A DNA stretch of 64,000 nt from Tsukamurella sp. TY48 (lineage in GTDB: Bacteria > Actinomycetota > Actinomycetes > Mycobacteriales > Mycobacteriaceae). Of this stretch, positions 17,333 to 26,893 are shown one piece after another (the first letter of the stretch is position 1; each line of letters begins with the position of its first letter). The stretch covers positions 2,480,001 to 2,544,000 of the forward strand of contig NZ_BPMV01000001.1 of the NCBI RefSeq assembly GCF_019656655.1, read 5' to 3'. Position numbers and translations under genes: made by a program. Under the pieces are notes generated by a model. It saw only the letters and a program-made list of their open reading frames with translations. It had not been told where the DNA came from and did no database searches.

Positions 17333-17516
17333 TGAACAGTTCTGCGACATTGACCGACCGCTACCCCACGCGGCTGCCCGAGGCCGGCATCGTCATGGAC
17401 CGGCCCGATCCGGTGATCTGGCCCGGACGCGACGGGCCCTGGGCCGAGGACGCGGTGGAGTTCTTCGGAGACAACGGGTATCGCAGCGTGGAGGGCGTGC
17501 TCGACGCCGCCGATCT
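17333..17516 (+). pseudogene. ectD: 5' fragment of ectoine hydroxylase gene, cut by the island
   Basis: The first 61 codons match the N-terminus of EctD, the Fe(II)/2-oxoglutarate dioxygenase that converts ectoine to 5-hydroxyectoine. Visible landmarks are DRYPTR at residues 8-13, the RPDPVIW block and FFGDNGYRSVEGVL. Homology stops at about 17516, where composition changes abruptly. The frame then runs through unrelated sequence to a stop at 17680-17682. The SD GGAAGG precedes the ATG. All iron ligands are beyond the break, so no active enzyme can come from this fragment. Confidence 0.8.
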
Positions 17517-17517
17517 A

Positions 17518-18111
17518 CTAATCCGGATATGCATCGCTGCGGTTCAAAACCGCATCTTCCTCAATGGTAAGACCCTCATGAAATTCCTCGAGAGTCGGGG
17601 GAACATAAACATCCCAATCCCCGAACCCGAGGAGTGGTTTCCAGTTCGCCTCGCTCCGCTCTGGCGTCTGAGCAACCTTTAAACTGATGAACTCGTATAC
17701 AGCCTCGCTCATTTGACGCCTAACGTCAGCGGTGCCATCGGTCGAGAATCGGTATGATTCAATGACGTCCGCATCCATCTCTGTCAGAATTCGATTATCG
17801 GGATCCTGTGAGATTGAGTAATGATTCTCGTTGGCGCCGAAAGCGAACATTCGATCGCCAGTCTTCTCATAAGCGATCCCGAGGATCGGAGTTCCGCTGG
17901 CACTGTAGCGGGTTACTGTAATTCCGTTTCCGTGCGGCATCGTATCGATCGTCGCGAAAGGTACTCCGTCGACGGACTCGTCCGAGATCAATGCGATGGT
18001 GAACTTCATTTCGCCGTCGGTGTTAAACCGTCGCTGTGCTTGCTCTTCCGTCATAGGCTCTGTGGGCCTATTCTTAAGCCAGTACCAGTTCTGGCAATAT
18101 ACGATCTTCAT
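17518..18111 (-). CDS. Unrecognised 197-aa soluble protein, low GC
   Basis: The protein is acidic, has no signal peptide or membrane segment and starts MKIVYCQNWYWLKNRP. It contains many aromatic residues and a mixed alpha/beta pattern. I do not recognise the family; the size and style would fit an immunity protein or an Imm-like orphan, but nothing proves it. Its GC is visibly lower than the host's. The TAG stop (17518-17520) sits right at the ectD junction, so the original C-terminus may have been cut. A 7-bp inverted repeat (TGCGGTT-CAA-AACCGCA) lies inside its last codons. Confidence 0.65.
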   Translation of the reverse strand: MKIVYCQNWYWLKNRPTEPMTEEQAQRRFNTDGEMKFTIALISDESVDGVPFATIDTMPHGNGITVTRYSASGTPILGIAYEKTGDRMFAFGANENHYSISQDPDNRILTEMDADVIESYRFSTDGTADVRRQMSEAVYEFISLKVAQTPERSEANWKPLLGFGDWDVYVPPTLEEFHEGLTIEEDAVLNRSDAYPD

Positions 18112-18174
18112 GGTATTCAGAGCACCGCCTTACCTGATTCTGGGAGCATGGGGAGGAAGTTCTGGTTGAGTGCA

Positions 18175-18742
18175 TTACCGGCAATGTCGACGATGCGTAG
18201 GTCGGGTCACGCCGAATTCGGCGGCGGTCTCGGCAACGGTATGCCGGCGTTTGCCGTCGGGGCCGGTTTCGTTGTACATGGCCTGCGCGAGCTGCACCTG
18301 ACGGGCACCGAGCTTGGGCTTGGGACCGCCGCGCCGGCCGCGGGCACGCGCGGCCGCGAGGCCGTCGAGGGTGCGCTCGGAGATGAGGGCATGCTCGAAC
18401 TCGGCGACGGCGCCGAGGACGTGGAAAAACATCCGCCCGACCGGGGTGGAGGTGTCGATACCCTGATCAAGCACTACCAGGTCGACGCCGCGATCGTCGA
18501 GCTGTCTTGGACAGCTCGATCAGGTTCTCGAGCGATCGGCCGAGGCGGTCGAGCTTAGTGACGATGAGCTGGTCGCCGGCGCGGTTCGCCGACAGCAGAG
18601 CCTTGTCGAGCTGGGGCCGTGAGGCGAGCTTGCCAGAGGCCTTGTCGATGAAGATCTCATCGCAGCCCGCCGCGGTGAGCGCGTCGTGCTGAGCTTCGGG
18701 GTGTTGATCGCGGGTCGAGCCCCGTCCGTATCCGACACGCAT
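18175..18742 (-). pseudogene. Frameshifted serine recombinase (resolvase/invertase family)
   Basis: The first part, from ATG 18742, reads as a Tn3-type resolvase N-terminus (VGYGRGSTRDQ…, KLDRLGRSLENL). After ELSK the frame is lost by one extra base near 18505. The rest continues in another frame (LDQGIDTSTPVGRMFFHVLGAVAEFEHAL… up to the C-terminal HTH, FGVTRPT). The YARVST active-site motif has become YGRGST, keeping the Ser, and the end after TRPT is scrambled. The element is therefore probably decayed, although a single sequencing error could explain the frameshift. The 164 nt upstream of it hold no recognisable gene. Confidence 0.85.
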
Positions 18743-18906
18743 GGACACGAGGGTATCGAGAACGGGGGAGTGCGTGACGTTGTTGCGGACACGGGGCACG
18801 GTACATCTTCGACCTGGGCGAACAGGTCAGCCGCCGGGATGTCTCATGAACGATCGAACGCGCGACGGCAGCATCACGACACAGATCGACACCCTCTATG
18901 CAGAGA

Positions 18907-19287
18907 CTAAATCGGCCCCATATAGCGAGAAGGTTCCCAATTCCTCCCGAGACTCTTGCCGACCCGCTTAGCCGTTTCTTCAGATACGCGCCATTCTGGG
19001 AACATCTCATTCCACGTACGCCACGAAATCCCAGTATGAAGAGCTGCAAACTGATACTTATTTGCACTACTCCACCTGTGAAAATCCGGCTCCATAACAA
19101 ACAGGTCGGCCAGCGATTCACGGAGTTCCACACTCTCGCCGGGGCCATCTTCAGATGACTGCACAGCACGTACAACCAGTATTACAACAGCAGCAAGAGC
19201 CACTAGACCGAAGATTGCTGAAAAATCCAAATCCAACAAGCGAAACAATGCCTTCCTGACGTAGGACCCTACGCAGCCATGGAGCAT
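18907..19287 (-). CDS. Small membrane protein, unrecognised, low GC
   Basis: A 126-aa product has one strong membrane segment (FSAIFGLVALAAVVILVVRAV, about residues 23-43) followed by an 80-residue soluble tail. No family is recognised. The start overlaps the upstream lipoprotein gene by 19 nt, which suggests translational coupling; an internal start is possible. Composition is AT-richer than the host, like its partner upstream. Confidence 0.5.
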   Translation of the reverse strand: MLHGCVGSYVRKALFRLLDLDFSAIFGLVALAAVVILVVRAVQSSEDGPGESVELRESLADLFVMEPDFHRWSSANKYQFAALHTGISWRTWNEMFPEWRVSEETAKRVGKSLGRNWEPSRYMGPI

Positions 19288-20012
19288 GCTATTTCAGTAA
19301 ACTTCAGAGCATTCCTGTCGAACATTGCGCGATCGGGCGTACCAACAGGGCTTCCATACTGCATCTCGTAAACATACCCGTGCCTGGCGAATAGAATCCC
19401 ATATGACGTTCGAATGTCAGGAATAGATGATACAGGAGAATCCTTACTACCATTTCCAGCACCCGGCTTGACCGTTTCCGATCGTGCAACCATGTAGGGC
19501 ACTACACTAATTTGACAGGCGGTCGCCGGAACTGCTATCGATGTGGTCTTCTGCCCGATCTCTACGTTGGGCAACGAAATTATCACGGACGAGCACCTAT
19601 CGGTCATCTGTCGCGTCCGCTCAACAGCTTTGTCAGATTCACCACTTTTGTAGACCGAGATCGACACCTGAGCCTGGGCAGCTTCAGAGCTTACGCTTGC
19701 CTCTGCTCCGTCCGATGTAGACGCGATCGCTTTCGCAGAGTCGAGAAGTGCCTGGCGACACTCTTGCGGAGTGACCGATGACTCCTCGATCTTTGTCAGC
19801 GAGCCCCGTGCATCTGAGACCATCTGGTCTTTACTACTGAAATTGCCTGTTATTGCAGGGGTAAGTTTGGGGCCCGCTTCGCGCACGAACTGTAACGCGT
19901 AACTCGGCGGAACGCCGGCAGAAGACCCAACGCCATTTTCTCCGCACGCAACAAGCGCTAGCGCGGCAACAGAAACGAGCCTCAAGAGTCGCAACTTTCC
20001 CTGCAAGAGCAT
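19269..20012 (-). CDS. Probable lipoprotein of unknown function, low GC
   Basis: The 247-aa product has a signal sequence ending in a lipobox (LALVAC-GE), so Cys23 would be lipidated and the protein would sit outside the membrane. The body is Ser/Thr-rich with four further cysteines that could pair. No domain is recognised. It lies 41 nt after the stalk protein gene and overlaps the next small membrane gene, so it belongs to the same unit. Low GC marks it as acquired. Confidence 0.7.
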   Translation of the reverse strand: MLLQGKLRLLRLVSVAALALVACGENGVGSSAGVPPSYALQFVREAGPKLTPAITGNFSSKDQMVSDARGSLTKIEESSVTPQECRQALLDSAKAIASTSDGAEASVSSEAAQAQVSISVYKSGESDKAVERTRQMTDRCSSVIISLPNVEIGQKTTSIAVPATACQISVVPYMVARSETVKPGAGNGSKDSPVSSIPDIRTSYGILFARHGYVYEMQYGSPVGTPDRAMFDRNALKFTEIACSMAA

Positions 20013-20053
20013 CTACCACCTTTTATCTAGAAGAGGACATCAACTCAGTCTAG

Positions 20054-21709
20054 TTAGAGACCGAGTTGCGGAACCGGTACCCCCTGGGCGCGCAGATCAC
20101 TTACATTAGCAGCAGAAATAGGCGCCCAACCCGAGGGTTGCGGTAGTATCTGTGTGCCGTTAAGCCCACCGCTAAACTGGCTGCGGGCCTCATAGTTGTA
20201 GACGTAGCTTACACTCAGAACGTTCTTTCCATTGTAGTTATATGCGCTTGCAGATACAGGCGTGATGCTCGCGATACGAATTTGAACCTGCTTGGCGATC
20301 TGTACATCAGCGGACCCTGCCTTGCCTGAGGAGTCAGGTCGAACTGGGATAGAAACTTGAGACTTTCCACTATCCCCGGCACCAAATGGATTTGGCCCCT
20401 TGACGAGGATATTCTTAGACCACGCGCCCTTGGCGTCCGGAACAAGATCAGGGTCGATGGTAACAGTTCTGTTGAAGGGTTTTGCGATACTGCTCGACAT
20501 GTCGGGGTCGTAGAACCCTGGCGGAACTTCTGTTTGTTCAAACATTCGATTAGTCGAGCCTGATCCGGAAAGGGTCGGGGTCTTGCTGTTCAGGGGAGAT
20601 CCGATGTACTGGCCTGGCAACCCCTGCTGTGACTGCCCCGGCTCTGTTGCGAAGTAGGTGAGGTTGTTTGCGACTTCCCTCGTCACCGTATCGGTCGCCC
20701 TATCCGCAACGGCAGCCGTCGTCATGGACGCGTCTTTGCGGCGGCGGGTGCCTGCGAGTGCTGCGGTTTCGGCGATGGCGTAGGGGATGCCGGAGTTTTC
20801 GTCGTCTTCGTTGTCGCTTTGGCTGCGATCGCTGTCGTCGTTGGTGCGGCTGGTGCTGGTTTCTGTGCTCCGGACCTCGGGGGTGCGTTGCGGGGCACTC
20901 CGTGTGGGCGTGGTGGTGACGGTGGGCTCTTGCTGTTGCCGCTGTTGTTCGGTGCCCGAGTTCTGCTGACCCCGCTGCTGTCCTTGCTGGCCGCCGGGTT
21001 GCTGGTTGGGGGCTTGCTGTGCGGCGGGCGGGTCGGTGGGGTTGCCGGGGATGTTCGGAGGCTGCTGGCCGGGGGTGCCGAACTCCGGGGTCTGGGCATG
21101 AATGTTGTCGCCGTTATTGCCGCCGCCGCTGTTAGCCGGCGGGGTCGCGATGCTGTTGGCCCCACCGCCAGCATCCTGGCCGCCGCCCTGTCCGGCGGGT
21201 GCGGTCGGAGCCGCCTGGGTGGGCGGGGTGAACGTCAACGTCGGCCCCGGCCCCGGCCCCGGCCCCGGCGGGCAGGTCGGGTCACCCGGGCACACGGCAC
21301 TCGCCGCCGGCAGCACATGCAACAGCGTGGGAGCGAACGTCACACCGGCGATCAGAGCGGTGACAGCGGCGGCGGTGGACACCTTGTCCGCCACCGTCGG
21401 CCCCGCCCCTGCACCCGCGGGCTTGGTGCTGCGGAGTTCGCTCACGCCCTTCCAGAACACCAGCCCGATCAGACCGGAAATCAGGAAGTAGCCGAGGAAT
21501 ACCGCCGGCACCGGTGTCCACGTCCTCGCCGGGCCAAACGCGATCACATACCCAGCCACCAACGCCAGAGCGGCGGCGATGGTGATCGCCCACCACCCCC
21601 CACGCGACACCCCTACCCCACCGTCGGGGGTTACGGGCTCGGTGCGGTGTTCCGGGTCGATCACGACGGTGCGCGGCGGCTGTTTCGCTGCGCGGTGCTC
21701 TGACGCCAT
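20054..21709 (-). CDS. Three-TM protein with Pro/Gln-rich stalk and C-terminal beta-rich domain
   Basis: The 551-aa product has a short cytoplasmic N-terminus, three membrane segments (about residues 36-56, 67-87, 112-132), then PGPGPGPG and a long Pro/Gln/Thr-rich low-complexity stretch (about 140-300). A distinct 250-residue C-terminal region, probably beta-rich and outside the cell, follows. The DNA is host-like GC-rich up to about 20,730 and clearly AT-richer for the C-terminal part, so the gene looks like a join of two sources. SD TAGGAGG sits 8 nt before the ATG. No family is recognised. Confidence 0.8.
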   Translation of the reverse strand: MASEHRAAKQPPRTVVIDPEHRTEPVTPDGGVGVSRGGWWAITIAAALALVAGYVIAFGPARTWTPVPAVFLGYFLISGLIGLVFWKGVSELRSTKPAGAGAGPTVADKVSTAAAVTALIAGVTFAPTLLHVLPAASAVCPGDPTCPPGPGPGPGPTLTFTPPTQAAPTAPAGQGGGQDAGGGANSIATPPANSGGGNNGDNIHAQTPEFGTPGQQPPNIPGNPTDPPAAQQAPNQQPGGQQGQQRGQQNSGTEQQRQQQEPTVTTTPTRSAPQRTPEVRSTETSTSRTNDDSDRSQSDNEDDENSGIPYAIAETAALAGTRRRKDASMTTAAVADRATDTVTREVANNLTYFATEPGQSQQGLPGQYIGSPLNSKTPTLSGSGSTNRMFEQTEVPPGFYDPDMSSSIAKPFNRTVTIDPDLVPDAKGAWSKNILVKGPNPFGAGDSGKSQVSIPVRPDSSGKAGSADVQIAKQVQIRIASITPVSASAYNYNGKNVLSVSYVYNYEARSQFSGGLNGTQILPQPSGWAPISAANVSDLRAQGVPVPQLGL

Positions 21710-21866
21710 AAGGGCTGCCTCCTACCAATAGTTGTAGTCGCACTACCGCCACCCCGCACACAACAACCACGGCGGGTCGGCATCCGACAGTGACAAGAAG
21801 TGAAAATTCGAAGAGTTTGCGGTGCTACACACGCACCCGATGCGATTCACCAGAGCACCCGCAGGC

Positions 21867-21909
21867 TGTCCGGATCAACCGGACACCACCTGTCCGGACC
21901 CTCCGGACA
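21867..21909. promoter_or_regulatory. Tandem palindromes TGTCCGG-N5-CCGGACA, twice
   Basis: Two perfect 19-bp palindromes (21867-21885 and 21891-21909) are separated by 5 nt, giving four 7-nt half-sites at an exact 12-nt spacing in alternating orientation. They lie in the 298-nt gap between the HTH-like gene and the stalk gene, 158 nt before the stalk gene start. They could be operators or two RNA hairpins. The rest of this gap holds no gene; a 9-nt repeat AGTTGTAGT occurs at 21730-21738 and 21962-21970. Confidence 0.6.
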
Positions 21910-22007
21910 CCCACCGCCCCAGCTCACACACGGTGACCGTTACCCAACCGCAACCACGCAAAGTTGTAGTAAAATCGGGCGTTTCGGCTATCTGCGGGGC
22001 GGTTTCG

Positions 22008-22610
22008 TCAGCGGGTCAGGGCACTGATGACACCGACTGCGACAGCCAGCGCCAGCACCAACCCACACAAGACAGCCAGGATCATCCGGGCCACCGGCTT
22101 CGGCAACGCCTGATACCGCACCACCACCGACGGCGGCACCAACGGCAACGAAGACGGACCCCGCTGCGGTGAGGTGGTGCCCGAGATCGTGTCCGCAGGA
22201 CTGTCCGTCAGAGCGGCCAGCCACAGCACCCGCCATCGGTCCAGATCACCAAGCCAACGCACCCGCTCAGTCCCACCGGCGTCAGCAACCTCCCCCACAG
22301 CCGTGGAGTCGGCAGCGGTACCGCCACTAAACGGCGACACAGTCTCCTGCTCCCGACCGTGGGCGGACGTGATCAGATACGCCAGCGTGGGCTCGATGTC
22401 CTCGAACCGAGACGGCACATGCCGACCCGAGCGCCAATCCGAAAGCCGCTGACGACTCACCGCGCAGATCGGCTTCACCGCCTCGGACACCGCCGCCAAA
22501 CTCGGACTCCCCGCCGCGGCAAATAACCCCCGCAACTGCTCCGCGAACACCACCACCGAATCAACCCCGGCATCCCCGCTGGTGTTGGGGCCTGATCCGG
22601 GACCGGTCAC
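22008..22610 (-). CDS. HTH-like protein with C-terminal membrane anchor
   Basis: A 200-aa protein whose first 80 residues (FAEQLRGLFAAAGSPSLAAV…SRQRLSDWRSGRHVP…LAYLI) resemble the compact helix-turn-helix modules at the N-terminus of actinobacterial signalling ATPases. A Ser/Thr-rich linker follows, and the protein ends in a single membrane segment (ARMILAVLCGLVLALAVAVGV). It would be tail-anchored with the N-terminal domain in the cytoplasm. GTG 22610 overlaps the upstream stop (GTGA), which sets the start. DNA binding is not proven; the domain may be for protein contacts. Confidence 0.72.
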   Translation of the reverse strand: MTGPGSGPNTSGDAGVDSVVVFAEQLRGLFAAAGSPSLAAVSEAVKPICAVSRQRLSDWRSGRHVPSRFEDIEPTLAYLITSAHGREQETVSPFSGGTAADSTAVGEVADAGGTERVRWLGDLDRWRVLWLAALTDSPADTISGTTSPQRGPSSLPLVPPSVVVRYQALPKPVARMILAVLCGLVLALAVAVGVISALTR

Positions 22611-23095
22611 GAGCCGGTGCCGGTGGTGAGCAGTCGGTACAGCTTCTGCACATTCGACCAGAACGACCAGCCCGCAACCATCACCACCACCGCAAAGATC
22701 ACCATCACCGCAGCCTTCCCGACCTGCGCCGACCAATCATCGAGCCGCGGCAACGCAAACGCACACCCCACAATCACCACCGCCGACACCACGAACCAAG
22801 CGAACGACACCGCTACCGCCCGCGCCACCGCCGCTTCCGCCCCTGCCCCTGACACAGCCGCGGCCGTGGTGGGCGCTGACATAGTCGAAGCCGGGGATGG
22901 AGGCGCAGACGGCGACAGGGAACTCTCCCCGTACGAGCTGCTACCTGCCGCCGCTGCCCCGTGCTGCTGCGTCGCCGCGACCTCACCCTCGCTGCCGCGC
23001 TGCACAGGCATCTGCTCGGTCACCGCATCCCCACCAACGGGGTCGGGATCGTGTGCGCTCATAGAATCCTCGCCCTCACCACGTGAATCAGCCAT
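22607..23095 (-). CDS. Two-TM protein with Ser/Ala/Pro-rich N-terminus
   Basis: The 162-aa product has an unstructured acidic and Ser/Pro-rich N-terminal half, then two membrane segments (about residues 95-115 and 126-146) joined by a short loop, and a short basic tail. No family is recognised. It is 22 nt after the porin-like gene and overlaps the next gene by 4 nt, so it is in the same operon. It could anchor or scaffold the neighbouring envelope proteins, but that is guesswork. Confidence 0.7.
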   Translation of the reverse strand: MADSRGEGEDSMSAHDPDPVGGDAVTEQMPVQRGSEGEVAATQQHGAAAAGSSSYGESSLSPSAPPSPASTMSAPTTAAAVSGAGAEAAVARAVAVSFAWFVVSAVVIVGCAFALPRLDDWSAQVGKAAVMVIFAVVVMVAGWSFWSNVQKLYRLLTTGTGS

Positions 23096-23117
23096 AGTCT
23101 TCAGTCTTCGCTACCGC

Positions 23118-23918
23118 TTAGGGGCGGGTGATGAAGATCGGCTTGCCGTACGTGGTGATCGAGTCATCCGTCCGATCCGTCTGCAACGCCAACGTCGCAT
23201 ACGAGCGGACCTGCACACCACCGATGCAGTTATCGACCGCCACCCGCACCTCCCGGGTATACGTCGCCGCGTCCGGGCCTTCCAGGTTCTTCTTCGCGTA
23301 CGGGATGTCCTTACTCGTTCCCGGCTTAATCACCCCCGAAATGCTGCCGGTCTCGGTGAGGGTGTCCCCGACGGTTGCAGAAATCCCCGGCGTCACCCCA
23401 GCCGAGACACTGCCGCCACCACTGCCACCATTGGTGCCGCCCTGGCCTTGCGCGGTTCCGGTAAGATTCGCCGTAACCGACGGAGTGACACCGACATTCG
23501 TTGCATTGGAAAGACTTCCACCCATCGTGAGGCTATCTGCGGTAACAGCGCAGCCGACCTGCAAACCCGTCGTCAACACCGCCGCTTTGATTTTCGACGA
23601 CGGCTTACGCTTCGCATCAGCAACCATCACCTGCGCCTCCCCGCCCACGGTCGAGAAAGCCTCGAAAGACTGTGGCGAACGATTAAGCGGCGGAACAGAT
23701 TTCAAATCTTCAGTGGACTTCTTCACCACCATCTTCCACCCATCCCGCGTGATCACCGCCCGCTGCGTAGTAGCGAACTGATCATCAGCCTTCTTGGCAT
23801 CAGCGGCGGGCTTGGGTGCGGGCGTGGGTGCGGCGGAAGCGGCGTAGCCGGGGATCGTGGCGGCGGCGAACGCCACTGCGGCGGCGCCGGAGAGGATGCG
23901 GGAGCGATGCGATGACAT
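23118..23918 (-). CDS. MspA-family porin-like exported protein
   Basis: A 266-aa product with a clear Sec signal peptide (ending about ASAAP, residue 31). The mature part has the MspA layout: DGWKMVVKK near the N-terminus, a glycine/serine-rich loop in the middle, VRVAVDNCIGGVQVRSYA and a terminal DSITTYGKP that matches the DSVTTYGEP end of MspA. MspA proteins form octameric outer-membrane channels in mycolic-acid bacteria. The Gly/Ser-rich insertion at about residues 160-172 is unusual. It is the first gene of the island's envelope run. Confidence 0.75.
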   Translation of the reverse strand: MSSHRSRILSGAAAVAFAAATIPGYAASAAPTPAPKPAADAKKADDQFATTQRAVITRDGWKMVVKKSTEDLKSVPPLNRSPQSFEAFSTVGGEAQVMVADAKRKPSSKIKAAVLTTGLQVGCAVTADSLTMGGSLSNATNVGVTPSVTANLTGTAQGQGGTNGGSGGGSVSAGVTPGISATVGDTLTETGSISGVIKPGTSKDIPYAKKNLEGPDAATYTREVRVAVDNCIGGVQVRSYATLALQTDRTDDSITTYGKPIFITRP

Positions 23919-24341
23919 CAGGGGTTACTTCTTCCTTCGAAAAACTGCAATGGGGGTGGTGGGGGAGCCAAAAGGGGAGGGCGCGTGCTCGACGGCACAG
24001 GCAGGGACAGCGCCCGCTGTTGCATGGTGGTGTGTCATCTGTTCCTTGGGGTCGCGCGCACCGCCGACGGGAGACCCGTGTCAGCCGATCAAGGCAGACG
24101 AGATGATCCCTCTTTGGGGGTGCAGTATGTTGCGACCCGCGCTAGCTGACATCCGTCGGCGGCGGGGAGGATTCCGCCACCCGAAGAAGTCCGTGGACTT
24201 CGAGGGGCGGCGCGCTCTGTGGCTGAGACTTTACTGAGCACACCTAGCATGCGCAAACGATGTAATCAACACAACAAACTCCGGCGAAAATTATCCCGCC
24301 TTGGCCCGCGCGCCTACACGGGATCCGAAGACAAGGGGCGG
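23919..24341. other. Intergenic 423 nt, probable promoter region of the porin-like gene
   Basis: No convincing gene is seen on either strand. A purine-rich AAGGAAGAAG lies about 10 nt before the porin start on the minus strand and may act as a ribosome site. The part near 24240-24300 is AT-richer than its surroundings and would suit a promoter, but I cannot name -35/-10 boxes with confidence. Confidence 0.4.
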
Positions 24342-25196
24342 TCAGCTGATGATGCGGCTGAATTTGTCCATCACACCGGGGATGGTGATGTCGGCCAGGG
24401 GCGCGGCCTTCATCAGGTTCGGGACGATCCGTAGTGGACGGGCGTCGATGGCGTGCTCGATCCACTCGCCGGCTTCGGTGTCGGTCAGGGTGACCCTGCT
24501 GTCGTACTTGGCGGTCGGGGCGATCATCTCGGTCTTCACCAGAGGGAAGTACACGACGGTGACCGCGACCCCGGAGCCCTCGAGTTCCGCGCCCAGGCTG
24601 CGGGAGAACATCTCCAACGCCGCCTTCGACGCGCCATAGGCACCGAACAGCGGCATCGTGCCGGGACGCAGGGCCCAGGTGCAGACGTTGACGATCTGGC
24701 CGCTACCGCGCTCACGCATCCCGTCGAGAACACCCAGGGTCAAGCGGACCGCAGCGAAATAGTTGATCGCCATGGTTCGCTCGAAGTCGTGCATTCGGTC
24801 GGTGGAGTCGATGATCTTGCGGCGGATCGACCGCCCCGCGTTGTTGACCAGCACATCAACCTTCCGGCGATTGAGATCGGTGATCACAGCGCCGGCCGAA
24901 TCCTCGTCTGTCAGGTCGGCCTCGATAGCGATCGCGGTGCCCCCACGCTGCTGCACGCCCTTCACTGTCGCAGCGAGCTCGCCACCACTACGCGCGATCA
25001 ACACCAACGTCGCACCCCGGCCGGCCAGCCGATAGGCGGCCGCCCGCCCGATCCCCGCGGAAGCGCCCGTAATCGCGACAGTCTTGCCCGCCAACGACGC
25101 ACCGCCGTGCTCCCGGCCCCCAAGCAGGCCCGGCAGAGACGGCAAGACCGAACGTTGCAGCAGTCGATGATTTACCGCACGCACAATGTTCGCCAT
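24342..25196 (-). CDS. Short-chain dehydrogenase/reductase
   Basis: A 284-aa SDR with cofactor motif TGASAGIG (about residues 43-50), NNAG (about 117-120) and YGASK (catalytic Tyr/Lys, about 186-190). The N-terminal 35 residues are an extension before the Rossmann fold. The C-terminal substrate region (YFPLVKTEMIAPT, a hydrophobic tail) resembles membrane-associated SDRs acting on long acyl or sterol-like substrates. It lies 47 nt after the 343-aa gene and may be co-transcribed. The substrate is unknown. Confidence 0.85.
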   Translation of the reverse strand: MANIVRAVNHRLLQRSVLPSLPGLLGGREHGGASLAGKTVAITGASAGIGRAAAYRLAGRGATLVLIARSGGELAATVKGVQQRGGTAIAIEADLTDEDSAGAVITDLNRRKVDVLVNNAGRSIRRKIIDSTDRMHDFERTMAINYFAAVRLTLGVLDGMRERGSGQIVNVCTWALRPGTMPLFGAYGASKAALEMFSRSLGAELEGSGVAVTVVYFPLVKTEMIAPTAKYDSRVTLTDTEAGEWIEHAIDARPLRIVPNLMKAAPLADITIPGVMDKFSRIIS

Positions 25197-25243
25197 AACG
25201 ACAGACGCTACCGGCCACCGCCCGACGCGGGGCAGTCGGCTTT

Positions 25244-26275
25244 TTAGCTGCGCTGAGGTAGACGGAACTCGATGACCACCAGCATCGGATCAGGCTGCGC
25301 GCCCCGCATGTACGGCAGCACCACCGCCTGCGCCGGTCCCCACTTACCGTCGGCCATCAAAATCTGCACCTCAACGCTCTCACCCGGACGTGCTTGCGCA
25401 AGCGCACGCCGCGATGCCGGCGGCACCAAATACTGCCCGCGTCCGGCGACCCTATCGACACTCACTCCCGGCGGCGGGTCTGTTAGCCACGTGCCAATAA
25501 TCAGATCCTCACCGTCACTGTCAACGCCCGCGTCAATCGGCACCGCGCCCTGATCCTGACGAACCCCCAACGCCAAACCCCGCCCCTCAGCCGCGGCAAG
25601 CTGACGCTGCGCGAACTCCGACGGCGACGGCAAATCCGGCTCCACCCCGTGCGGAGTGGTGTCGTAGAAGAAGCCACGACCGCCGGTATCGCTGTCGGCT
25701 TCCAGGATCATCTGCCACGCCATGATCTGACCCGTCTGCACGTGCACCACCGTCACCGGCCGCAGAAACCGCTTCCCCACAGTCGGGGTGTGCAAGATGT
25801 CCACCAGCTCCGCGACATGATCAAAACGCAACGCCCTACGCGTGAAATCCACCGTCGGCCGATCGGCGATGAACTCCTCAAAACTCGTCCCCGACATGTT
25901 CGCGCACGCGAAACTCTGATGAAAGACCCGCACGCCTGCTTGCCAAGCAAAACCACCCGCCGCAGGCGGCGGACCATCCGGAAACTGCTTGCCCTGCCAC
26001 ACCCGGACCCCGAACACCGCACCCTCCGGGCCGTCGATCGGCACCGCCCGCACACACACCCCGCCCTCAACCACCAACTCCCGCACTTCGCCCGACGTGA
26101 TCGCCCCCGCGACAACAGGCCACGCACCAGGAACATATCGCCGAGCCGACCACGGCAACCACTCCCGCACACCACCGTCATCGATCACCTGCGCCACATC
26201 ACCCTCGCCCACCTCCGACGCCTCCCACGGCGTCAAACACGCCAACACCGACCACCCAAACCGCGACCGCGCCAC
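25244..26275 (-). CDS. Unrecognised 343-aa protein, possibly GAF/PAS-like
   Basis: I choose GTG 26275 because AAGGAG lies 8 nt upstream; the frame is open to 26401 but the earlier part is Cys/Arg-rich and looks non-coding. The first 110 residues (GWSVLACLTPWEASEVG…) and the central 140 could be sensor-like alpha/beta domains; a GAF-then-PAS layout is known in mycobacterial orphans. The C-terminal 90 residues are beta-rich and contain GRGQYLVPP. No catalytic motif is seen. This is a hypothetical protein with host-like composition. Confidence 0.68.
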   Translation of the reverse strand: MARSRFGWSVLACLTPWEASEVGEGDVAQVIDDGGVREWLPWSARRYVPGAWPVVAGAITSGEVRELVVEGGVCVRAVPIDGPEGAVFGVRVWQGKQFPDGPPPAAGGFAWQAGVRVFHQSFACANMSGTSFEEFIADRPTVDFTRRALRFDHVAELVDILHTPTVGKRFLRPVTVVHVQTGQIMAWQMILEADSDTGGRGFFYDTTPHGVEPDLPSPSEFAQRQLAAAEGRGLALGVRQDQGAVPIDAGVDSDGEDLIIGTWLTDPPPGVSVDRVAGRGQYLVPPASRRALAQARPGESVEVQILMADGKWGPAQAVVLPYMRGAQPDPMLVVIEFRLPQRS

Positions 26276-26448
26276 CCTCCGCGCTCCTTTGCAACTCGCC
26301 CAACAGCAACAGAACGCAAACCTATAACCCGCACGACCGGCCCGCGACACCAACAAATCCGATAGCACCGTGAACGGGTCTGCTGAAGATCTGGTTGGCA
26401 CCGCAACGTCTCAGAAAGGGTCGGTTCTGGGACATCGTCATCGCCACG

Positions 26449-26477
26449 AGAGCGCGCACCCGCCGGGTGCGCGCTCT
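26449..26477. terminator. Perfect 13-bp hairpin near the right island end
   Basis: AGAGCGCGCACCC and its exact complement flank a 3-nt GCC loop. There is no T-run. It lies between the 343-aa gene (transcribed away) and the ectD 3' fragment, 59 nt before the ectD homology. It may be an orphan terminator brought in with the island or a relic of the gene that once preceded it. Confidence 0.6.
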
Positions 26478-26536
26478 TCGCGCTGACCAGGCTCTCGGCG
26501 ACCTGTCCGGCTTGCGTTCAGGGATAGGGACACAAC

Positions 26537-26893
26537 ATGCCGTTCAACGGCCCGTTGATGATCCTGCCCGGGTCGCACCGCCGGTTCGTGCCCTGCGTGG
26601 GCGAGACGCCCGGCGACTACCACCGCGAATCGCTCACATCTTACCGGCCGCCCTTCGGTACCCCGGAGGAGAACGACATCGCTACGCTGGCAGAGGAATA
26701 CGGCATCACGCAGGTGACGGGTGGGGCCGGCAGCGCGCTGTACTTCGACTGCAACTGCCTGCACGCCTCGGCCGGGAACATCTCACCGTTCCCACGATCG
26801 AACCTGTTCGTGGTGTTCAACGCGGTCTCGAACGCGCTGGAGGAGCCCTTCGCCGCGCAGTCGCGACGGCCCGAGTATCTGGCCGCGCGCTGA
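26537..26893 (+). pseudogene. ectD: 3' fragment of ectoine hydroxylase gene
   Basis: 118 codons match the C-terminal 40% of EctD: FNGPLMILPGSH, VPCVGETP, the C-terminal LHASAGNISPFPRSN that carries one iron-ligand His and the 2-oxoglutarate Arg region, and EEPF…RRPEYLA at the end. Homology begins abruptly at 26537, and a TAG is in frame 9 nt before. The HxD iron ligands are in the missing middle. A product from ATG 26537, if made, could not be an active dioxygenase. Confidence 0.82.

Follow-up and report, generated by a model that had tools for sequence, protein, structure and literature searches.

A porin-linked stalk cassette of Tsukamurella with exchangeable C-terminal ends is probably a polymorphic toxin-immunity system

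Polymorphic toxin systems join a fixed N-terminal part to an exchangeable C-terminal toxin and carry an immunity gene next to it (Zhang et al. 2012, PMC3482391; in the part of the survey covered here, both Ntox44 and SUKH appear). The same part describes varied toxins carried by an N-terminal membrane module (PrsW) or by an N-terminal domain restricted to one lineage (MafB). In Tsukamurella sp. TY48, a 64,000-nt stretch of contig NZ_BPMV01000001.1 (hereafter, the window) holds a six-gene cassette of similar logic. Its genes, all read from the minus strand, encode in order an MspA-family porin, a protein with two transmembrane (TM) segments, a helix-turn-helix protein with a TM anchor (HTH-TM), a stalk protein, a lipoprotein (P0005) and a small one-TM protein (Table 1). 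As read from the sequence, a conserved membrane platform and a Pro/Gln-rich stalk precede a junction motif; behind the motif come an exchangeable cargo and then a gene specific to that cargo. Genes for the porin, the two-TM protein and the HTH-TM protein are retained next to the stalk gene. The best overall explanation, and one we consider quite likely, is that the cassette represents an allele of such a polymorphic toxin-immunity system.

Several features set it apart from the polymorphic toxins of that survey: a Pro/Gln-rich stalk with three TM segments, a dedicated clade of MspA porins, and the two-TM and HTH-TM partners. Neither "MspA" nor "Tsukamurella" is mentioned in 300,000 of the 357,715 characters of PMC3482391. 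With PrsW-linked and MafB-type toxins, as the covered part of the survey describes them, the cassette shares a membrane or lineage-specific N-terminal module and varied toxins, but its host has a mycolate envelope and its partner is a porin. A Pfam scan of 24 proteins (23 stalk open reading frames [ORFs] and one detached cargo ORF) found no PrsW, MafB-N or TpsA secretion domain and no WXG or LXG N-terminal domain. WXG and LXG domains head toxins of the type VII secretion system (T7SS/ESX), including those of Mycobacterium abscessus phages, which also have polymorphic C-termini (PMC5555719, PMC7953293 and PMC7849713, each in the part covered); the stalk, in contrast, has TM segments. CpnT of Mycobacterium tuberculosis is likewise a toxin secreted by a mycolate bacterium and differs in being an ESX-5 substrate (PMC8092274, covered in part). 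The window porin itself belongs to the same family (PF09203) as the MspA porins of the mycolata. In the portions of the literature on mycolata porins and toxins that were covered, no MspA-toxin cassette was found described. The logic of the cargo is known; the carrier and its set of partners were not found described in the literature searched.

All six ORFs that an initial annotation of this DNA had placed on one strand are present there, the MspA-like porin it named matches that family, and the TM segments it assigned agree with Kyte-Doolittle analysis (two hydrophobic segments in the two-TM protein, one in the HTH protein, three in the stalk and one in the small protein). Beyond MspA, none of the six proteins received a name above cut-off from Pfam or NCBIfam. 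The HTH-TM gene, for which we chose a GTG start, overlaps the two-TM gene by 4 nt. The small TM gene overlaps the lipoprotein gene and lies mostly beyond the interval 19269..23918 that the annotation had given the cassette. GC content is.62 in the porin gene,.67 in the two-TM gene,.67 in the HTH gene and.705 in the N-terminal part of the stalk gene, then.549 in its C-terminal part,.536 in the lipoprotein gene and.509 in the small TM gene (window mean,.689), so the AT-richer 3' end that the annotation reported is real. The best single change point within the stalk gene is nt 20691, where GC falls from 70.3% to 53.9%, 47 nt past the last Arg of the motif GIPYAIAETAALAGTRRR.

That motif marks the junction between a conserved and an exchangeable part. 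We compared 32 stalk genes with their flanks; they come from 14 of the 16 Tsukamurella genomes. In 29 of these genes, a motif about 20 residues long with Arg as its last residue is in frame; the three stalks that have no such motif (L053, L051 and L073) look frameshifted or truncated. It reads GAPSWAYLVGEA...AGRRR in most stalks and GIPYQAAEIAALAGTYRRK in a compact class, with GIPYAIAETAALAGTRRR as the window copy. Among the 406 pairs of motif-bearing stalks, 334 match before the motif and 26 after it (BLASTP at E 1e-5, with the alignment covering 40% or more of the shorter part). The proposal of a fixed platform with swapped 3' cargo is borne out by these counts: rather than sharing one conserved C-terminus, the last 130 residues of the 29 stalks fall into 20 groups (L067, L068 and L045 look broken). 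GC is lower past the motif in 29 of 29 stalks (mean.715 before,.614 after), and because the direction is always the same, the drop is not due to chance.

The exchange is also visible in DNA. At sites with conserved flanks, the match ends at the motif. L046, L047 and L066 have platforms and far flanks that are 74-96% identical per aligned piece, and their ends are Ntox44, colicin-M-like and GH19-like, respectively. L005 stops matching at the motif when compared with L065 and with L067; L065 and L067, which both have the cargo region of the L007 type, match each other further. Within the TY48 genome (4.37 Mb, two contigs) there are four stalk genes, and the three paralogues match the window stalk only over about residues 29-328.

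Two of these loci carry additional ORFs. The stalk of L067 (6550-7240) is frameshifted; downstream lie a toxin-like ORF, detached from the stalk, and a repeat-like fragment. A standalone cargo cassette would be expected to look like this. Between the HTH-TM and stalk genes of L005 (7748-10611) lie four small ORFs, one of them DUF4333-like by eye, which are possible orphan immunity genes.

The swapped ends include WHH and NS_2 nucleases, Ntox44, and GH19-like and colicin-M-like domains. NS_2, WHH and Ntox44 exceed the Pfam cut-off; the window's own end matched no Pfam family. Further families are common to the cassette and polymorphic toxin systems. The C-terminal domain of the L006 stalk is Endonuclea_NS_2 (E 1.5e-9), and the next gene encodes a SUKH-1 protein (E 5.1e-8). 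Below the cut-off, the L007 end is HNH-like (E.02) and that of L005 a glycine-zipper region (E.0028); behind the latter, the next gene encodes several TM segments. Genes 3' of other stalks encode lipoproteins or multi-TM proteins. Cargo tentatively read as colicin-M-like occurs in L047, L048, L049 and L072, with lipoprotein genes after that of L047, L048 and L072. These three resemble TelC/TipC and the colicin M family; TelC is a lipid II phosphatase toxin active outside the membrane, and TipC is its membrane-anchored immunity protein (PMC6193138, covered in part). The likeness is to the cargo of relatives of the window stalk, not to the window's, and the delivery platform differs. An immunity-type gene thus adjoins the cargo as SUKH-1 in L006 and as a lipoprotein or multi-TM gene elsewhere; for the window, it is assigned by position and a tentative sequence link.

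Known-toxin ends that are swapped, a SUKH-1 gene and a conserved N-terminal part therefore argue for a polymorphic toxin-immunity system, and the case for this reading is strong. The suspicion of a "polymorphic surface or conflict system" was right, and can now be worded more exactly.

The remaining genes also travel with the stalk. At 23 of the 32 loci, the MspA, two-TM and HTH-TM genes are all found no more than 5.3 kb from the stalk start, in keeping with the co-occurrence that the initial annotation led us to look for. Six further loci (L006, L049, L053, L068, L071 and L073) have one or two partners or fragments of them. The stalk gene is frequently divergent from some partners, and orientation is not fixed. 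Ordinary envelope genes, neighbours by chance across a local drop in GC, might be suspected from the way GC varies across the surrounding genomic island. Co-occurrence at 23 of 32 loci, a GC drop past the same motif in every motif-bearing stalk and the allelic swaps refute this explanation, and we give it next to no probability.

Among 30 rows of porins sampled, those of the cassettes group in a single clade (100/100 support) that is separate from the rest; the four rows labelled "other" within it are the same genes fetched twice. At L005 and L007, too, the stalk is accompanied by porin, two-TM and HTH-TM genes of its own, and these porins are 83% and 63% identical to the window's. A Gly-rich stretch is invariant in 12 of 12 cassette porins; a similar one occurs in one non-cassette porin of the TY48 genome. 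A PDB sequence search with the window porin gave no match at either E 0.001 or E 0.01. In the compact class, the MspA genes of L045, L072 and L074 encode a long Pro/Ala-rich C-terminal tail. Elsewhere in the TY48 genome (L118, 7166-11244), an MspA-family gene is followed after 9 nt by a gene for a signal-peptide Pro-rich protein, HNH-like by eye (no Pfam match); beyond it come genes for DUF5642 (E 2.6e-12) and SUKH-1 (E 1.3e-8) proteins. This may be another place where MspA and a toxin adjoin, here with a carrier unrelated to the stalk.

All four stalks of the TY48 genome have three TM segments. By the pattern used, 30 of 32 stalks have A-x-A at the end of TM3 with a CP motif after it, and this AxA-(x)CP site looks like a signal-peptidase site. 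In our reading of the sequence, charged residues favor N-in insertion; with three TM segments, the stalk and its cargo would therefore lie outside the cytoplasm. Both an export role for the porin and the mode of action of the window's cargo are inferred. A TM-anchored stalk might instead present the toxin through the envelope in contact-dependent display, with the porin as receptor, anchor or uptake route and not as exporter. We rate such display as possible, if short of probable: the three TM segments of the four TY48 stalks, the conservation of a platform with a long Pro/Gln region and the fact that MspA is the sole outer-membrane-type protein seen linked are all consistent with it, whereas the AxA-(x)CP site, in nearly every stalk, is what would be expected if the stalk is cut free.

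In the mechanism we propose, the stalk protein would insert N-in with its three TM segments, placing stalk and cargo outside the cytoplasm. Cutting at the signal-peptidase-I-like AxA site after TM3 would free the stalk-toxin in the periplasm, from where it would cross the mycolate outer membrane, most likely helped by the dedicated MspA-family porin. Assembly or regulation of the stalk-toxin may fall to the two-TM and HTH-TM proteins, and recombination just past the junction motif would bring in new cargo-immunity pairs. The boldest form of this model is that an MspA clade was recruited as a dedicated outer-membrane exit for exchangeable toxins, a compact, ESX-independent route whose substrate is freed by an internal signal-peptidase site. 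We offer it tentatively and regard it as doubtful. Two observations weigh against the proposed mechanism as a whole: L055, L061 and L070 have no partner in the stretch compared, which means that a porin gene does not accompany every stalk in cis, and the TY48 genome holds 11 MspA genes.

The HTH that the initial annotation suggested is recognized by Pfam in paralogue P0013, as a match to HTH_31 below the cut-off (E 1.5e-5; 25.6 bits, cut-off 27); the window copy and P0014 match no Pfam family. P0013 also matches nSTAND1 (E 7.6e-7; 29.5 bits, cut-off 27.1), at profile positions 260-377 of 379 only, and the P-loop NTPase core of nSTAND1 was not matched in P0013, P0014 or the window copy. HTH-TM proteins resemble the first part, and in many cases also a later part, of proteins mostly 1250-1500 aa long in other genera of the family, which we read as HTH-nSTAND1 proteins. 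The window HTH-TM thus appears to be a short form, and longer members of its family seem to keep the post-NTPase part. This protein is likely a membrane-tethered regulator. Its kinship with HTH-nSTAND1 proteins could also point to intracellular defense or signaling (anti-phage or stress), with an nSTAND-derived sensor and membrane effectors. We think this very improbable, as PADLOC models gave no hit at E 0.01 for seven of the eight proteins scanned, the eighth (P0013) has only weak matches in its HTH region (E.0015 and.0031), the cargo set and downstream genes are of polymorphic-toxin types, and the predicted topology puts the cargo outside the cytoplasm.

What does the window's own cargo do? 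A good AlphaFold2 model of the domain (pLDDT 82) has two long strands. The domain is matched in 19 of 401 family genomes, TY48 included, from 8 genera. Its relatives occupy 19 other places, and in the 14 that we read with flanks it is the C-terminal end of other proteins: four with ESX-like N-termini by eye, a fragment of 90 aa (L097) and nine with signal peptides, including two in Tsukamurella. One of the four ESX-like carriers, L084, has a WXG100-like N-terminus (E 3.8e-4, below the cut-off), a point of likeness to T7SS/ESX toxins. An anchored protein of 227-261 aa is encoded directly downstream of the four ESX-like carriers and L097 (5/5), with a lipobox in four and an N-terminal TM segment in L091. 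The position of P0005, 41 nt downstream of the stalk gene, resembles that of these proteins. P0005 also matches L150 (phmmer, E 6.4e-6), which in turn matches the lipoprotein family profile (E 2.6e-13, 11,305 ORFs), a distant and tentative link that runs through L150 only. The window cargo is probably a periplasm-acting toxin with the lipoprotein as its putative antidote. As for the swapped 3' cargo of the initial annotation, P0005 is more likely an immunity protein than a piece of that cargo. Downstream of both Tsukamurella signal-peptide proteins that end in the cargo domain, L086 and L089, there is a short HTH protein akin to that of the cassette.

Other results count against a periplasmic toxin. 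The nine signal-peptide relatives have no adjoining lipoprotein in the same scan, and therefore the domain might serve another role there. The window cargo has no recognized catalytic motif or clear PDB fold match. Alignment of P0005 with the ESX-linked lipoproteins by hhalign was not significant, the lipoprotein profile did not list P0005 among the 11,305 ORFs, with or without L150, and L150 does not itself adjoin a cargo domain. The signal-peptide relatives and the thin lipoprotein link are the chief doubts. Together with the absence of a catalytic motif, they are what might be expected of a domain with a structural or binding role in secreted proteins of the mycolata, captured by the platform. 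We consider such a non-toxin domain unlikely, since it sits in the exchangeable position with a lipoprotein next to it and since anchored proteins also follow the ESX-like carriers.

The stalk platform is known only from Tsukamurella in the genomes searched. A profile of its N-terminal part (A3) matches 15 of 16 Tsukamurella genomes, G012 by a weak fragment only, and all 17 named stalk loci from a species-wide collection are from this genus. Outside it (301 family and 200 order genomes), matches were short and weak, with a best E of 4.4e-5. Among PLSDB plasmids there was one match, to a 402-kb plasmid of Tsukamurella tyrosinosolvens (E 1e-12), where a stalk relative (NZ_LR134456.1:386849-387124) is 50% identical over query residues 58-140. 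The platform may therefore move by plasmid.

In TY48, the cassette sits in an island that 14 of 15 other Tsukamurella genomes lack at the corresponding site; in the remaining one, G011, the flanks are on different contigs. The flanks (to 17505-17516 and from 26533-26539) are only 330-342 bases apart in 11 of the 15, and G003, G012 and G013 also have no insert, with other edges. The island appears to split an ectoine hydroxylase gene (17335-17517 and 26537-26890): the right piece covers TIGR02408 positions 157-271 of 277 (E 1.3e-47), and the 61-aa left piece has no family match. Apart from a broken recombinase, it carries SDR and Rv3651-like genes. The 197-aa gene at its edge might be an orphan immunity gene.

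Table 1. Features of the cassette and island (window coordinates)
Feature	Position	Strand	Basis
MspA-family porin, 266 aa, signal peptide	23118..23918	-	PF09203 E 2.6e-44
Two-TM protein, 162 aa, Ser/Ala-rich N-terminal region	22607..23095	-	Hydrophobic segments 93-111, 128-146; homologues beside most stalks
HTH protein with C-terminal TM anchor, 200 aa	22008..22610	-	Likeness to paralogue P0013; one hydrophobic segment
Stalk protein, 551 aa	20054..21709	-	Conserved N-terminal platform and swapped C-terminal end
Stalk platform part, aa 1-324	20738..21709	-	TM 41-59, 67-85, 115-133; AxA-type site; Pro/Gln-rich stalk; junction motif GIPYAIAETAALAGTRRR
Swapped C-terminal cargo domain, putative toxin, beta-rich fold	20054..20737	-	No relative elsewhere in own genome
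Lipoprotein P0005, 247 aa, putative immunity protein	19269..20012	-	Lipobox LVAC by eye; position
Small one-TM protein, 126 aa, putative second immunity or accessory protein	18907..19287	-	One hydrophobic segment
Genomic island, ~9.0 kb, carrying the cassette	17517..26532		Comparison with 15 other Tsukamurella genomes
Serine recombinase broken into two frames	18175..18799	-	PF00239 in both pieces, searched apart
197-aa gene at island edge, about 53% GC	17518-18111	-	No Pfam match

MspA is known as a nutrient channel and a nanopore, and by what route proteins leave mycolic-acid bacteria through their outer membrane is a standing question. To the polymorphic toxins, the cassette adds a type of carrier, a clear junction motif of natural origin and a cargo that the stalk shares with other secreted proteins. 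An MspA clade that travels with a toxin carrier in one genus would be a small, genetically separable test system for outer-membrane crossing, and the cassette may open a way to study protein passage across a mycobacterial-type outer membrane.
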